A stretch of DNA of 19,241 bases, taken from NCBI GenBank assembly GCA_016281295.1, contig JAEEII010000144.1, positions 1 to 19,241 on the forward strand. The letters run 5' to 3'. The notes beneath the pieces are model-generated. The model was not told the DNA's origin and ran no database searches. It worked only from the letters and a program-made list of their open reading frames with translations. The DNA comes from Bacteroidales bacterium (lineage in GTDB: Bacteria > Bacteroidota > Bacteroidia > Bacteroidales > F082). Of the stretch, positions 5,797 to 18,045 are shown piece by piece (position 1 is the stretch's first letter; every line of letters begins with the position of its first letter). A program made the position numbers and the translations under genes.

Positions 5797-5831
5797 TTAT
5801 TTTTTATGATGATCACTTCGTTCTTTCATTA

Positions 5832-5868
5832 TAGTCGGAATCGCCAAAAAAAATCGAGATTCCGACCA
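5832..5868. repeat. TAGTCGG palindromic element, copy B
   Basis: The left arm TAGTCGGAATCGCC, an A8 loop and the right arm GAGATTCCGACCA form a hairpin 35 bp after the BspA-like stop. Flanking CAT and ATG/ATC bases extend the pairing a little. Confidence 0.75.
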
Positions 5869-5952
5869 TGATCGTTGTTTTTACCTATAATCAATCAACC
5901 GGTTTTTGATTCAGATTCTCATAAAATGATTATTATTTTATGATTATCACTT

Positions 5953-7363: not shown

Positions 7364-7428
7364 CAATTTTATTCTTTTGTGTACCTGATGAATTTGAAAT
7401 TTTAGAGTTCTAATAATAAAATAGATCG

Positions 7429-7465
7429 TAGTCGGAATCTCCAAAAAAAATTAAGATTCCGACTA
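7429..7465. repeat. TAGTCGG palindromic element, copy D
   Basis: The left arm TAGTCGGAATCTCC is followed by an A8 loop and the right arm AAGATTCCGACTA. Outside the arms GATCG and CTATC extend pairing to about 16 bp per arm. It lies between the convergent TonB-domain and DUF3037 genes, 65 bp after the former's stop. Confidence 0.8.
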
Positions 7466-7499
7466 CTATCGTCTTCGTGGTCATGTTTTGACTGGCGAA

Positions 7500-7842: not shown

Positions 7843-8640
7843 TTATCCAATATTTTCGTTAAGACAATTTGTGAAATTATTCCATACCTCAGCCGTCCAA
7901 TGCTCATCAAATAACTGACGCAACTTCTCGCTGACAGTTTCGGTTGTGACTTTCCATTCTGGTGGCATTTCGGCCAACACCTCCGTGATGATGTCTTTAC
8001 TTTGGCGGAGGCATTCTTCATAATCAGCCTTTAGGCTGTTGGCAAGGGCAAAAACGGTCTTGCGGTCGATGTTTTGGATGAGATGCTTAAATAGATCTGA
8101 CCACAGAATGGTGTCGGTTGAAGTGAGTTGCGAGATTGGGGAATCGAAGGTTGCCGTGTTGAAGATACAGCCGTAGTCGATTGATACCAACTGCGCGCGA
8201 GCCACATCGTACATCAGATTAGCATTATTCGCATTGCGGTCTTCATTAGCTATCCAAAAGTCGAACAAGGCGATTTTCAACAGTTGATCTAACGTTTTTT
8301 TCGTGGCAGGAACTTTGGCATAAGTGGAGGGTGTAATGTCAACGACGCCATCGAGCCATCGGAAGCCAATTGACGGGGCAGAAAGACTATGCGAAAGATT
8401 CATTCTTTCCCAATGAGCAGGACGAATGTTAACCAAGGCAATATCAGGGGTAAATAGGTGCCATGCCATTGCCAGCTTTGCTCCTATGAACTCACATGCA
8501 AGCTTATAAGCAGAAGCCATTGAGCGCATGTATTTGCAGACGTATATGTTTACGTCAGAACACATTACAATAACGGGTTCCTCGCCTGTGTGGAACTGTT
8601 GCTTGATGGGTTGTGCGCTATATAGTGTGGATATGGCCAT
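7843..8640 (-). CDS. HipA-like kinase (HipA_2 type)
   Basis: A 265-residue protein with a HipA-type kinase fold. Signatures are a candidate ATP-contacting Lys36 in the strand NIYVCKYM, a conserved Glu50, the catalytic loop FDFWIANEDRNANNANL (Asp134, Asn139) and the metal-binding SIDYG (Asp155). It is shorter than HipA of E. coli (about 440 residues) and lacks the HipB-interacting N-terminal subdomain, as usual for HipA_2 proteins. It is the first gene of a two-gene operon with DUF3037. No HipB-like regulator is adjacent. Key residues are present, so it may be active; the target is unknown. Confidence 0.85.
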   Translation of the reverse strand: MAISTLYSAQPIKQQFHTGEEPVIVMCSDVNIYVCKYMRSMASAYKLACEFIGAKLAMAWHLFTPDIALVNIRPAHWERMNLSHSLSAPSIGFRWLDGVVDITPSTYAKVPATKKTLDQLLKIALFDFWIANEDRNANNANLMYDVARAQLVSIDYGCIFNTATFDSPISQLTSTDTILWSDLFKHLIQNIDRKTVFALANSLKADYEECLRQSKDIITEVLAEMPPEWKVTTETVSEKLRQLFDEHWTAEVWNNFTNCLNENIG

Positions 8641-9202: not shown

Positions 9203-9331
9203 TTCATCCATTTCATCCATTTTTATCTCAGATTATCCATTTTGGATATAGTTTCGTATCTTATTTGGATAATTAAAATACTGATAGTCAGTAAATTAAC
9301 TTGTTTGTTTTTTGATTTTTTTGTATTTTTG
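9203..9331 (+). promoter_or_regulatory. Promoter module of the radical SAM operon with TATCC palindrome
   Basis: It begins with TTCATCCATTTCATCCATTT. The palindrome TATCCA-TTT-TGGATA is at 9234-9248 and the -7 box TATTTTTG at 9324-9331. It is alignable with 17085-17201 along most of its length (ATAATTAAAATACTGAT versus CAATTAAAATATTGAT). Transcription would start near 9338, so a start codon at 9312 is excluded. Confidence 0.6.
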
Positions 9332-9407
9332 CAATTCAAAACAAGAGGACTTGCCAAAAGAAATGAGGCAACAAATAAAGAATAGGAAAAACATTGGGAT
9401 CATTATT

Positions 9408-10979
9408 ATGAGCAACACGAAGTATAGGCCTGTTTGGACCTGCGGACGCTACAATGCAGAAAAGCACGTGGCACTGATGTACAACCTTTTGGCTGGCTAC
9501 AGCTATTTCTTTGAATCGTATTCGGCGGATGTCATCGGACATTTGCTTGCCGTACCGCGCAATGGCAAGGTTGAAGTGGGAAAGATAGCATCTGCAACAG
9601 GCATTGCAGAGGAGTCCATCAAAATGTTTTTCGATACCTTAATTAATGTAGGTCTGTTGACGGATTTTGTTCCAACAGCAGACGACATCAAAAGGCTGCG
9701 CACGCAATTGGCCGAAGCCAAACGCAACACTTCGATGACCAAAGTGAAAACCACCAAGGAAAAACTGCCTTTCGACACCTCCTCGGCGGAGCAGGATTAT
9801 TACAATGCCGTTGACGATGGCATGACGGTGACTTCCGTTATGTTTGAGTTGACCTACAACTGTAGCGAGCAATGCATCCATTGCTACAATCCTGGTGCCA
9901 CCCGCAATGACAATGAAATCAGCCACCGAGCCGACCGCGAAGAACTCGATTTAAACGATTACAAACGCATCATCGACGACCTTTGCGAACATGGTTTGGT
10001 GAAAGTCTGCCTTTCGGGTGGTGACCCATTTTCAAAGCCTATTGTATGGGACATTATTGATTATCTTTACGAAAAGGAAATCGCTTTTGATGTCTTCACC
10101 AACGGGCAGCGCATAGTGGATAAGGTGGAACGCCTGGCCAACTACTTCCCCCGCTTGGTGGGTGTGAGCATCTACAGCGGCATTGCCGAAGACCACGATG
10201 CCATCACCCGTGTGAAAGGCTCTTGGGAACGCTCAATGAAAGTGGTGGAGCAACTTGCCAACCTTGCCGTTCCCATGAACCTGAAATGCTGCATCATGCA
10301 GCCTAACCTGCATAGTTATTATATGGTGGCAGACTTGGCAAAGAAATATGGTGCTGAGCCTCAGTTTGAAATTAACATCAACGATTCCATTGACGGCGAC
10401 TTGTGTTCCAGACAATTAAGGTTGACTGAAGAACAATTGCAGGTGGTACTCAGAGATGATCATATTGCATACCATGTTGACAAAGACACGCCTATCTATG
10501 AAGGCAATTCTATTTCAGATGTAGTAAATGGATGCAGTGCGGCGGCTACTACCTTTTCAATTACACCCGACGGAGAGCTTCAGCCATGTTGTGCTTTCCC
10601 TATGTCTTTTGGCAATTTAAAGAAACAATCCATCGGTAGCGTTTTTAATGAGAGTCAATTGCTAAAGGAATGGCGTTCAGTTACTTTAAAACAATATGAA
10701 GAGTGTGGGAAACATGACTATTGTGGTTATTGTAACCTATGCGCTGGAAACAATTATGGTGAACATGGCAATTATCTTAAACCAGCAGAGACCAATTGCT
10801 ATATGGCAAAAATTCGTGCGGGTTTGGCGAGAAAACTTAAGCAAGGCTTGGATTCCTTGCAAGATCAAGATTTTGTAACCGCGTTGAAAGCCCTACCGAA
10901 GACCAAGGTGGACTTGCGACGCATTTTTGATACAAAAGGGATAAATGGTGTCTCCCGCAGTACACCTATAACCGACTAA
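9408..10979 (+). CDS. Radical SAM/SPASM peptide maturase
   Basis: A 523-residue enzyme. Residues 1-100 form a helical, winged-helix-like N-terminal region consistent with a peptide-binding (RRE/PqqD-like) domain. The radical SAM cluster motif is C152-x3-C156-x2-C159 within YNCSEQCIHCYNP, followed by LSGGDPF. A SPASM region follows with Cys376, Cys394/395, then Cys433, 439, 442, 445 and 464 (ECGKHDYCGYCNLCAG), enough for two auxiliary Fe-S clusters. Such proteins modify ribosomally made peptides, for example by thioether or C-C crosslinks. The adjacent 34-residue peptide is the obvious substrate. The ATG at 9408 fits the conserved start; an ATG at 9363 is possible. No exporter or leader protease is seen in the window. 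Confidence 0.88.
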   Translation: MSNTKYRPVWTCGRYNAEKHVALMYNLLAGYSYFFESYSADVIGHLLAVPRNGKVEVGKIASATGIAEESIKMFFDTLINVGLLTDFVPTADDIKRLRTQLAEAKRNTSMTKVKTTKEKLPFDTSSAEQDYYNAVDDGMTVTSVMFELTYNCSEQCIHCYNPGATRNDNEISHRADREELDLNDYKRIIDDLCEHGLVKVCLSGGDPFSKPIVWDIIDYLYEKEIAFDVFTNGQRIVDKVERLANYFPRLVGVSIYSGIAEDHDAITRVKGSWERSMKVVEQLANLAVPMNLKCCIMQPNLHSYYMVADLAKKYGAEPQFEININDSIDGDLCSRQLRLTEEQLQVVLRDDHIAYHVDKDTPIYEGNSISDVVNGCSAAATTFSITPDGELQPCCAFPMSFGNLKKQSIGSVFNESQLLKEWRSVTLKQYEECGKHDYCGYCNLCAGNNYGEHGNYLKPAETNCYMAKIRAGLARKLKQGLDSLQDQDFVTALKALPKTKVDLRRIFDTKGINGVSRSTPITD

Positions 10980-10990
10980 ATCATACGACG

Positions 10991-11095
10991 ATGAAAGTAG
11001 AATTAGTTATCAGCAACGTCTCCAACGTCATGACCCCTGGTCACTGCGCTAATAATAGCAACGGCGTTTGCGGTATTAACGTGAGACAAATTTAA
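10991..11095 (+). CDS. Candidate RiPP precursor peptide, 34 residues
   Basis: An ATG 11 bp after the maturase stop opens a 34-residue frame. The first half is MKVELVISNVSNVMT, the second PGHCANNSNGVCG then INVRQI, ending at TAA 11093-11095. Two cysteines (Cys19, Cys27) sit eight residues apart in an Asn/Ser/Gly-rich loop, a plausible core for thioether or other radical-SAM crosslinks. The hydrophobic beta-prone start could be the leader bound by the maturase. No double-Gly site is seen. Position, size and composition argue for a precursor; no homologous precursor family is recognised. Confidence 0.72.
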   Translation: MKVELVISNVSNVMTPGHCANNSNGVCGINVRQI

Positions 11096-11106
11096 AATGC
11101 TATGTC

Positions 11107-11137
11107 AAGGGGGGGGCTTTATCCGCACTCCCCTTTT
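11107..11137 (+). terminator. Candidate attenuator/terminator hairpin after the precursor
   Basis: AAGGGG (within an eight-G run, 11109-11116) can pair with CCCCTT (11130-11135), immediately followed by TTCTT. It lies 12 bp after the precursor stop and before the next gene of the same strand. A partial terminator here would leave more precursor mRNA than downstream mRNA. The loop is loose, so confidence is limited. Confidence 0.5.
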
Positions 11138-11174
11138 CTTAACAACTAATGTTTAACAATCAAACAATAGAAAA

Positions 11175-11366
11175 ATGGAAATGATATTTGAATTAGGTCC
11201 TATATATAGAGTAACTTATGAGGATGGAAAAATTCTCAACTTTAAACTAATCGGAGGCAAAGATTTGACTTATGAGGTTACTGATGAAAACGACGAACGG
11301 AAGTTTGTCAATGGAAGCCAATGGATGAATGGGTTTATTAAAATTGAGAAAGTTTTGAATCAGTAA
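11175..11366 (+). CDS. Small hypothetical protein in the radical SAM operon
   Basis: A 63-residue protein, MEMIFELGPIYRVTYEDGKI at the start and NGSQWMNGFIKIEKVL at the end. It is beta-strand-rich and acidic, with no cysteine, signal peptide or membrane segment. An A-rich AATAGAAAA precedes the ATG. It is unrecognised. It lies 79 bp after the precursor and 20 bp before the next gene, all same-strand. Possible roles are a peptide-binding chaperone, an immunity protein, or a second substrate, though the lack of Cys weakens the last. Confidence 0.65.
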   Translation: MEMIFELGPIYRVTYEDGKILNFKLIGGKDLTYEVTDENDERKFVNGSQWMNGFIKIEKVLNQ

Positions 11367-11386
11367 TAATTAATCATATTGTAAAA

Positions 11387-11611
11387 ATGCCAAATAAAGA
11401 ATTTCAAGAATTAAAAAGACAGTGGTCTTGTCTCAAAAAAGACGAAGCAGATATCATCGGTAAGATGCGCGAAAACCTGTTGAGAAGAAATAACATGCAA
11501 GAAGAATACGCTTTAAAATATACCGAGCAAGGCATTACTTATAACATTAATTCTGCAAGTGTAGAAGAGTTGTTCTCAATTGATGGCGATATGTGCCCAC
11601 AAGGAAAATAA
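11387..11611 (+). CDS. Small helical hypothetical protein in the radical SAM operon
   Basis: A 74-residue protein. The first 50 residues are highly charged and likely one long helix or coiled coil (KNEF-like start, KKDEADIIGKMRENLLRR). The tail is NINSASVEELFSI then DGDMCPQGK with one late Cys. No family is recognised. Its TAA overlaps the ATG of the next gene (TAATG, 11609-11613), so the two are translationally coupled and probably function together. A C-terminal core peptide cannot be excluded but is not favoured. Confidence 0.65.
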   Translation: MPNKEFQELKRQWSCLKKDEADIIGKMRENLLRRNNMQEEYALKYTEQGITYNINSASVEELFSIDGDMCPQGK

Positions 11612-12453
11612 TGCTAATGATACCCGTTTTATCCAGAACAATAGACTATACCATTCTTGCATGGTGTGAAAATGCTATCCCTTTTCCTTATCTCCGCTCT
11701 GAGTACGGCGACAAAACCATGTGGCAAGTCAGTCCTATCCATGGCCGCAGTTTTGTGGTGGACAGGACTGACGAAGGCCGCTATGTGGTGAGCAAGGGTA
11801 ATGGTTTGGGCTATACGCAATACAATTTCGTTTATACACCCGAAATGCCATCGGATGTCTGGGGATTATTGCTCAAGGAAGATGCCTTGCGCGATTTCCA
11901 TTGTGGACAAGAAGTGCAAGCGTTGGGAATCAAGACGAACCAAATGGAGTGTGTGCTGGAACTGGATTATCCCATCCATATCGCCAAAACCAATGTGGAC
12001 AGAAACCCCGTTCTGCTGCAATACAATGTGGAAAGTCCCTATCGTATCAGCGATGCGCCGTTTATGACACGGGAACAAATCTCTTACGAAGTCAGCAAAT
12101 GGGAACGGATGAACGACAAAGGTTTTGACAAGGATTATCTCATTGCAGCTAATGTACTCATCCACAATCTGCGCATCATGCACGACCACGAGGTTCTGCA
12201 CAATGCCATCCACGAACAAAATTATACTTGGGCACTGGAACTTCTTGACTTTGAATTGTGCCGCACGCCGAATTATCCTTACACCCAAGCCGACTATGAG
12301 CGGCATGTGTGCAACCTATATGATAGGGAAGTGATACAAACTTATCAGATTATCAACTATATCGCAGGTTGCCTCAATGAGCCTGTCGATTTCAAACAAC
12401 TCGACAATCTTTTCTTTGAATACGGCTTTGACATTGAGAAATTTAAAATTTGA
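11611..12453 (+). CDS. Kinase-like protein of the radical SAM operon, catalytic Asp missing
   Basis: A 280-residue soluble protein. The middle has LHNAIHEQNYTWALELLDFE (residues 196-215). This lines up with the catalytic loop and metal site of aminoglycoside-phosphotransferase-like kinases (HGDxHxxN, then xLxDFE). His197, His201, Asn204 and Asp213 fit, but the catalytic Asp position is Ala199. It could be a pseudokinase, an AMPylase-like or peptide-modifying enzyme, or an unrelated fold. The assignment rests on motif resemblance only. The start is the ATG of the TAATG overlap with the previous gene; a GTG at 11593 is disfavoured. It lies 27 bp before the repeat-protein gene. Confidence 0.72.
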   Translation: MLMIPVLSRTIDYTILAWCENAIPFPYLRSEYGDKTMWQVSPIHGRSFVVDRTDEGRYVVSKGNGLGYTQYNFVYTPEMPSDVWGLLLKEDALRDFHCGQEVQALGIKTNQMECVLELDYPIHIAKTNVDRNPVLLQYNVESPYRISDAPFMTREQISYEVSKWERMNDKGFDKDYLIAANVLIHNLRIMHDHEVLHNAIHEQNYTWALELLDFELCRTPNYPYTQADYERHVCNLYDREVIQTYQIINYIAGCLNEPVDFKQLDNLFFEYGFDIEKFKI

Positions 12454-12480
12454 AATTAATCAGACAAAAAACCAATAAAA

Positions 12481-12774
12481 ATGCGCTATAAATACATTCG
12501 CGAAGGCCAAGCAAGCTACGGAAGAATCCTTTATAACATCGATGGGCGATTTATCAGAGAAGGCATACCCTCATACGGCACCATTTGCTATAATATTGAT
12601 GGCAATTGGATCCGTCGCGGCCATACCTCGTACGGTGAAATCGTTTACAATATCGACGGCAACTTTATCCGCAAGGGTCAAGCCAATTATGGCGAAATCC
12701 TTTATAACATCGATGGTTGCTATATCAGAAGAGGACCACTGAAGATAGGAACGATTGTGTGCCATTTGGAATAA
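12481..12774 (+). CDS. 19-residue-repeat beta protein, last gene of the radical SAM operon
   Basis: A 97-residue protein made almost wholly of tandem repeats with consensus I-R-x-G-xxx-YG-x-I-x-YNIDG-xx. Units are at 6-24, 25-43, 44-62 and 63-81, plus a degenerate 82-97. The alternation suggests a small closed beta structure in which each repeat gives a beta hairpin, reminiscent of beta-flower or propeller-like repeat proteins. There is no signal peptide. Nucleotide identity among repeats is high enough to suggest recent expansion. In the context of the operon it may be a scaffold or binding partner; nothing shows which. Confidence 0.8.
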   Translation: MRYKYIREGQASYGRILYNIDGRFIREGIPSYGTICYNIDGNWIRRGHTSYGEIVYNIDGNFIRKGQANYGEILYNIDGCYIRRGPLKIGTIVCHLE

Positions 12775-17930: not shown

Positions 17931-17984
17931 ATATACTTTTTTTCATCAAGCCTGCCCTTCTTGACGAGGTTGGTGAATCGATAG

Positions 17985-18021
17985 TAGTCGGAATCTCCCA
18001 AAAAAATCGAGATTCCGACTA
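17985..18021. repeat. TAGTCGG palindromic element, copy G (perfect arms)
   Basis: TAGTCGGAATCTC (17985-17997) and GAGATTCCGACTA (18009-18021) are perfect 13-bp inverted arms around a CCAAAAAAATC loop. The outer GATAG and TAATC bases extend them. The left flank GACGAGGTTGGTGAATCGAT resembles the ATPase 3' end found beside copies A and F. Confidence 0.85.
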
Positions 18022-18037
18022 TAATCATTTTTTTGCG

Positions 18038-18045
18038 TATCTTTG
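18038..18045 (+). promoter_or_regulatory. -7 box of the SH3-domain lipoprotein gene
   Basis: TATCTTTG is followed by CCACCC, with the ATG at 18078. It lies only 16 bp after palindrome copy G. Confidence 0.6.

Follow-up and report, generated by a model that had tools for sequence, protein, structure and literature searches.

Among the described maturases of ribosomally synthesized and post-translationally modified peptides (RiPPs), AlbA, SkfB and SuiB, radical S-adenosylmethionine (SAM) enzymes with a SPASM domain and a fused RiPP recognition element (RRE), give rise to subtilosin, sporulation killing factor (SKF) and streptide, respectively. The RiPP clusters described in Bacteroidales, where class I bacteriocins are stated to remain elusive, comprise radical SAM proteins with SPASM domains, precursors with GG-motif leaders, peptidase-containing transporters and a histidine kinase (PMC10352776, excerpts). 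For the AMPylase SelO (YdiU), roles have been assigned to the ATP-site residues Lys113, Glu136, Arg176, Arg183, the metal-binding Asn and Asp262 (PMC8097203, PMC3281104, excerpts), and the MchC/MceJ proteins of siderophore microcins were described as a distant SelO subfamily, MceJ pairing with an HlyC-like acyltransferase and the peptide receiving a siderophore (PMC3281104, excerpts). Our literature search (titles and abstracts, mainly open access, few preprints) found nothing that connects radical SAM peptide systems with SelO or with AMPylation. Here we analyze a stretch of 19,241 nucleotides from a Bacteroidales bacterium (contig JAEEII010000144.1; hereafter, the window), six genes of which are, with moderate confidence, best explained as a RiPP-type maturation locus comprising a maturase with its peptide core, Cys-based crosslinking and a SelO-fold nucleotidyltransferase. 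Its three principal genes are:

9408..10979, + strand: SPASM radical SAM maturase, 523 amino acids (Pfam, structure comparison)
10991..11095, + strand: precursor peptide, 34 amino acids, core C19-x7-C27-G28 (strict pattern in 50 of 68 loci; alignment)
11611..12453, + strand: compact SelO/YdiU-fold protein, 280 amino acids, probably a nucleotidyltransferase (predicted fold)

A scan of one genome per species yielded 67 related loci (68 with the window), which belong to Bacteroidales, families and genera thereof, unspecified Bacteroidetes/Bacteroidia and two Candidatus genera, many of them from rumen or gut; the closest, L001, comes from an uncultured Bacteroidales metagenome-assembled genome and encodes a maturase 92% identical to that of the window. 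Genome-wide counts were based on 342 different genomes, that is, 50 of the 67 loci available as genomes (picked for the maturase) and 295 genomes from the order of G001, with three in common (G001, G206, G211). All six open reading frames (ORFs) of the locus lie on the + strand and are separated, just as the first-pass annotation of this DNA had it, by 11, 79 and 20 nt, an overlap (TAATG at 11611, shared by the 74-amino-acid and 280-amino-acid genes) and 27 nt. The maturase start that it placed at 9324 is better set to the ATG at 9408, because the aligned homologues begin at the same place. Its pairing of a SPASM maturase with an own Cys-containing precursor was borne out, the two being found together with its "kinase-like" gene in 40 of the 68 loci; that label, in turn, gives way to a compact SelO-fold protein, which describes the 280-amino-acid product better. 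Its view that no named class fits also agrees with our data: the 25 NCBIfam families shown, out of 60 matching, all scored below their own cut-offs, the best of them being AhbD (102.8 bits vs. a cut-off of 500), with AlbA at 90.1/850, PapB at 51.5/340 and SkfB at 48.2/300 bits.

In Pfam scans, which covered the six locus proteins and 10 flanking ORFs of the window, the maturase matched PF04055 and PF13186, both above the cut-offs. The cysteines of the CxxxCxxC motif (C152, C156, C159) and seven SPASM cysteines were invariant across 53 maturase sequences. The structures of SuiB and SkfB aligned with the maturase, N-terminal domains included, and judging by structure its N-terminal region is a candidate leader-binding (RRE/PqqD-like) domain; a match to a PqqD-type Pfam profile was not detected in the maturase.

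Four of the 68 loci (L016, L062, L065, L066) end too soon 3' of the maturase, leaving 64 evaluable for the peptide. The strict pattern found it in 49 of the 67 related loci and thus, with the window, in 50 of the 64; reading of the ORF lists added L006, L007, L044, L049, L050, L051, L053, L054 and L059 (59 of 64), while the L041 peptide is truncated to 20 residues and no convincing copy was seen in the ORF lists of L058, L060, L063 and L067. Maturases consistently lacking the peptide, which the first-pass annotation had named as the observation that would speak against it, are therefore not what these loci contain. In the alignment of 50 peptides C19, C27 and G28 do not vary and L5, S11 and R32 hardly do, all of these being positions that the pattern itself fixes or restricts; positions free in the pattern were conserved as well, namely Tyr/Trp before the Arg (47/50), Glu (37/50), Pro (35/50) and the first Lys (42/50), as counted in a set of 50 differing by one row from the aligned one. 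A looser pattern occurred exactly once per locus in 49 loci and nowhere else on the scanned strand, and differences at the three codon positions (0.43, 0.34, 0.63) were as expected for a constrained coding sequence. The peptides of the window and L001 are identical in protein and differ by one silent base change. Among the nine peptides added by reading, Cys-x7-Cys-Gly is absent in L006, L007, L049, L050, L054 and L059, the Cys-Gly of L044 and L053 stands at a different spacing, and L051 fits the motif; in two further genomes with more distant maturases, the L158 peptide fits and the L159 peptide is unlike. We consider it highly probable that the maturase acts on the adjacent two-Cys peptide. 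It is fairly likely that the crosslink is Cys-based, and the two core cysteines allow, as a candidate product, a thioether of the sactipeptide/ranthipeptide type from Cys to carbon.

The 280-amino-acid protein, with 1063 homologues at E ≤ 0.001, has the predicted fold of SelO; ordinary Ser/Thr kinase homology was rejected, as the corresponding fold scores were clearly below those for SelO. K62, R145, N204 and D213 are present in 64 of 64 SelO-fold sequences, the N-to-D spacing of 9 is the same as in E. coli SelO, and the HRD aspartate is missing, as in SelO. The equivalents of Lys113, Arg183, Asn and Asp262 are invariant in a register set by hand and only partly by hhalign. A search for canonical SelO in six host genomes gave a single match (E 0.063) and nothing above the cut-off.

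The SelO-fold gene, counted at E ≤ 1e-10, was present exactly once in 33 of the 50 maturase genomes, in all 33 on the maturase contig at a distance of less than 1 kb; one of the 33 matches is interrupted by two stops. The 295 genomes of the order comprise five with the maturase, among them G001 itself and the likewise already known G206 and G211, and three with the SelO-fold gene, which in each of the three adjoins the maturase. Across 38 loci, distances in the maturase tree were correlated with those in the SelO-fold tree at r 0.91, while 1000 permutations reached 0.26 at most.

From the computed gene families, motifs, predicted fold and linkage we infer the following reactions, substrate of the SelO-fold protein and role of the product. 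The N-terminal domain of the maturase would bind the conserved N-terminal half (leader) of the 34-residue peptide, and SAM radical chemistry, assisted by auxiliary Fe-S clusters, would modify its C-terminal half, most likely linking the two conserved cysteines through thioethers. Next, the SelO-fold partner would take a nucleotide, in all likelihood adenosine monophosphate (AMP), from an ATP bound in flipped orientation and transfer it, most likely to the modified peptide; alternatively, it may activate the peptide C-terminus, as has reportedly been proposed for MceIJ on a microcin. The beta flower protein and the small proteins of the variable slot would be accessories. Nucleotide transfer by the SelO-fold protein is a probable, though putative, activity; that the nucleotide goes onto the peptide is a plausible guess somewhat short of an even chance.

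Several observations weigh against this account. In the aligned register Tyr takes the position of SelO Arg176, Gln or Glu that of the catalytic-loop Asp, and the helix C Glu stands one residue out of register relative to SelO Glu136. Homology to SelO is weakly supported by profile-profile comparison (P 0.02-0.03, probability 1.6-2.4%, 39 columns), two further hhalign runs produced no meaningful alignment, the Pfam SelO family PF02696 did not match the protein at E ≤ 1, and its best sequence match in PDB is an unrelated glucosyltransferase (E 0.0047). As to the peptide, those of L006 and L007 have a single Cys, Cys-Gly is absent from those of L049, L050, L054 and L059, and those of the window and L001 are without the usual aromatic residue before Arg. 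The agreement of the two trees would be equally expected under joint vertical descent, and 13 of the 68 loci that have room for a partner gene carry neither the SelO-fold gene nor that of an M42 peptidase. The missing HRD Asp together with the altered Arg176 and catalytic-loop positions would also suit a SelO-fold protein that is a catalytically dead scaffold or an immunity-like binder of the modified peptide, but the presence of K62, R145, N204 and D213 in every sequence compared makes us regard this as rather unlikely.

The partner of the maturase-peptide pair is not always the same. Across the 68 loci, the SelO-fold gene (40 loci, partial in L031) is the commonest third member beside maturase and peptide; an M42 peptidase gene on the maturase strand and within 3.5 kb of it was found in 13, both in two, and four loci could not be judged. 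M42 takes the place of the SelO-fold gene in 11 of its 13 loci, and the M42 type shows up at what appear to be five separate positions on the maturase tree. The earlier remark that no protease is included therefore stands for the six genes of the window and fails for the related loci with a downstream M42 peptidase. Among 120 listed maturases, 11 possess an N-terminal HAWN-motif domain and five an HExxH domain, and the maturase of L012 carries an ADP-ribosyltransferase domain; M42, HAWN, HExxH and ADP-ribosyltransferase look like interchangeable protein-acting enzymes. A Ser/Thr kinase gene paired with that of a ~190-amino-acid regulator lies near the maturase, in either orientation, in 23 of the 68 loci according to our own clustering. 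Such replacements and the kinase-regulator pair would be expected if the maturase and peptide formed a fixed module and the partner (SelO fold, M42, ADP-ribosyltransferase, HExxH or HAWN) were an interchangeable effector, controlled or targeted by the modified peptide in a conflict or stress-response system. We hold this to be improbable, since the core of the peptide shows conservation, not diversification, 49 of the 50 maturase genomes have a single maturase copy (one has two), and a PADLOC scan of seven proteins matched the maturase alone, to viperin models. That conserved core and mostly single copy, the three peptidase-looking domains in homologous systems and the failure to recognize an exporter among the scanned window proteins are, on the other hand, consistent with an intracellular peptide-derived cofactor or signal, like PQQ (pyrroloquinoline quinone) and mycofactocin, that is freed by the M42, HExxH or HAWN peptidases, with the SelO-fold protein in a tailoring or regulatory role. 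This possibility appears about as doubtful as the previous one: the occurrence, in 5 of 295 genomes of the order, is sporadic, and no client enzyme was recognized among the recurring neighbours, which include several families of unknown function. Returning to the maturation locus with nucleotidyl transfer, we propose only tentatively that it represents a new class of modified peptides, in which a two-Cys core crosslinked by the radical SAM enzyme is nucleotidylated by a dedicated miniature SelO-type enzyme and the partner is exchangeable for peptidases or an ADP-ribosyltransferase.

Further observations concern the homologous maturases and their neighbours. The HExxH domain occurs in P0053, P0054, P0056, P0061 and P0117, the HAWN domain in P0067, P0068, P0075, P0076, P0078, P0099-P0101, P0106, P0118 and P0123; both add ~138-164 N-terminal residues that look, by eye, metallopeptidase-like or Cys/His/Asn (transglutaminase-/papain-like), and seven examples compared with Pfam gave nothing significant (a metallopeptidase family once, E 0.25). 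In L012 (9458-11521) the ADP-ribosyltransferase domain matches PF03496 at 23.7 bits vs. a cut-off of 23.4, and the M42 gene that follows encodes a strong match (PF05343, 279 bits). In L001 (1523-2539), L003 (9055-10020) and L052 (9004-10020), the maturase start overlaps by 20 nt with the gene of a protein of 321-338 amino acids, in which probable membrane segments and a stretch resembling a zinc ribbon can be made out by eye; this gene is not in the window. The kinase-regulator pair, exemplified by L001:5731-7949, L003:14104-16328 and L026:7461-9228 and present also in L037, is lacking in the window as well; the one regulator scanned had no Pfam match, and the regulator has 0-4 copies per genome in 17 genomes, 13 of which were picked for a kinase near the maturase. 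A 320-amino-acid Cys-containing family, U32-like by eye, stands near M42 in several loci (L026:12775-13734 and five more; nothing significant in Pfam for the one member scanned), and in the divergent locus L063 (1911-2615) a WHH/colicin-DNase-like nuclease gene (PF14414, PF12639) lies downstream. Two other readings of the system were tried and rejected. As a known defence system it had only viperin-type radical SAM matches, for the maturase among the seven proteins scanned. As to a phage or plasmid origin, there was no DNA match in plasmids, the matches in phages (7 records) were limited to radical SAM proteins at 22-30% identity, and none of 35 pattern matches in viral contigs was a confirmed relative.

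The remaining features of the locus are as follows:

9301..9331, + strand: promoter-like site, matching the pattern TTG-N20-TAnnTTTG (weak evidence)
11096..11681, + strand: cassette whose DNA is not similar to that of the closest relative, comprising both small genes and ~24 codons of the SelO-fold gene (blastn)
11107..11140, + strand: terminator-like hairpin with a T-rich tail, directly 3' of the peptide gene (own rule, RNA fold)
11175..11366, + strand: small protein of 63 amino acids, no family, variable slot (Pfam and NCBIfam blank)
11387..11611, + strand: small protein of 74 amino acids, variable slot (relatives in two loci)
12481..12774, + strand: 6-fold beta flower protein (Bflower_3), 97 amino acids, accessory (PF21786)

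The promoter-like pattern, which follows the Bacteroidetes promoter consensus, was found within 250 nt upstream in only 5 of 66 loci (in-gene control, 0/66). By a simple self-made rule with a threshold, a hairpin follows the peptide gene in 37 of 50 loci, vs. 0-1/50 in five mononucleotide shuffles and 0 in the in-gene control; elsewhere the rate was 125/879 after all ORFs of at least 150 amino acids, and around the SelO-fold gene 1/39 after it, 6/39 in the preceding 110 nt and 1/39 inside. The window hairpin folds with -15.5 kcal/mol (z -1.98). The maturase and peptide may therefore form a unit with reduced read-through into the downstream genes. A hairpin after the precursor gene, two cysteines and a SPASM maturase would likewise befit an ordinary exported sactipeptide-like bacteriocin with its exporter encoded elsewhere; this seems very unlikely to us, considering that no double-Gly-type leader is visible by eye, that the core is conserved, and that the one recurring ABC-type ATPase family (7 loci) never lies less than 4 kb from the maturase.

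Downstream of the peptide lies a slot occupied by differing small proteins, or none, depending on the locus. In blastn, the window matched L001 at 89% over 9408-11095, then nothing, then at 87% over 11682-12450. In all six relatives compared, the flanks of the cassette are 70-89% alike on both sides, and similarity resumes near codon 24 within the SelO-fold gene, for L001, L002, L003, L008 and L052 at 11682-11685 and for L009 at 11691; the left edge is the peptide stop (11095) in L001, L002 and L003 and falls within the peptide gene, at 11004-11016, in L008, L009 and L052, the last having one additional 78-nt match inside the cassette (11108-11181). Identity of the SelO-fold protein between members of 30 close pairs amounts to 41-49% in residues 1-20, 62-71% in residues 21-40 and 80-97% per ten residues thereafter, except for 78% (51-60) and 71% (71-80). 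This extension of the exchange into the SelO-fold gene counts in favour of the interchangeable effector weighed above. Whether the N-terminus of the SelO-fold protein strictly co-varies with the family of the small protein was also considered: L009 and L057 share both slot family and N-terminus and L010 neither, which is suggestive, but the slot proteins of L001 and L008 are unlike while their N-termini agree, and we do not claim strict co-variation.

That the six genes form one conserved unit, as first supposed, was not supported. The terminator-like hairpin parts the peptide gene from those after it, and among the 67 loci (E ≤ 1e-3) the 63-amino-acid protein has no relatives, the 74-amino-acid protein two (L011 and L059, 49%; a 108-amino-acid family in 6 further loci resembles it by eye only) and the beta flower protein four, one of them weak and farther away. 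The last-named protein matched PF21786 at E 4.7e-24 (85.1 bits vs. a cut-off of 34), its repeat pattern fits, and its gene is also next to or after the SelO-fold gene in L002, L009 and L057 (4 of 68 loci).

Around the locus, direct repeats of 91-98% (2668-2967/12899-13198 and 3024-3568/14119-14983) flank the region and cover M15 peptidase and DUF234-type parts. The minus strand has two copies of a ParD-type antitoxin region, 96% identical (6408-6707/8846-9145), a HipA-like kinase gene lies at 7843-8640, and a palindrome-like repeat (GTCGGAATC...GATTCCGAC) is present in three copies (5823-5891, 7420-7488, 17976-18044).

Sequence comparison does not easily reveal bacterial relatives of SelO, nor are their substrates easy to guess. 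The SelO-fold gene described here was found only beside the maturase in the genomes searched; this provides it with a definite partner gene and, in the peptide, a short candidate for its substrate, which makes its chemistry directly testable; if our account is true, a nucleotidyl-transfer step is added to radical SAM peptide biology in Bacteroidales. Compared with the RRE-fused SPASM enzymes AlbA, SkfB and SuiB, the locus shares the cluster cysteines, a short precursor adjoining the maturase and, for SkfB and SuiB, a structural match including the N-terminal domain; it differs in its precursor family, in the SelO-fold or M42 partner, in the lack of a recognized exporter alongside and, with respect to AlbA and SkfB, in a maturase far under the equivalog cut-offs. 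The RiPP clusters of PMC10352776 likewise belong to Bacteroidales and contain a radical SAM protein with SPASM, while the excerpts of that source mention no SelO-type partner. With the SelO/YdiU AMPylase the partner protein shares the predicted fold, the Lys/Arg/Asn/Asp positions, the missing HRD Asp and the N-to-D spacing; in contrast to it, the protein has 280 amino acids instead of 478, is without the C-terminal region, has changed active-site positions and, across the 342 genomes, was found only beside the peptide maturase. MchC/MceJ, as far as the excerpts of PMC3281104 go, are the one precedent that we found for a SelO relative in the maturation of a ribosomal peptide; the likeness is one of description, and, unlike for MceJ, an HlyC-type acyltransferase is absent by Pfam among the six locus proteins and the 10 flanking ORFs.

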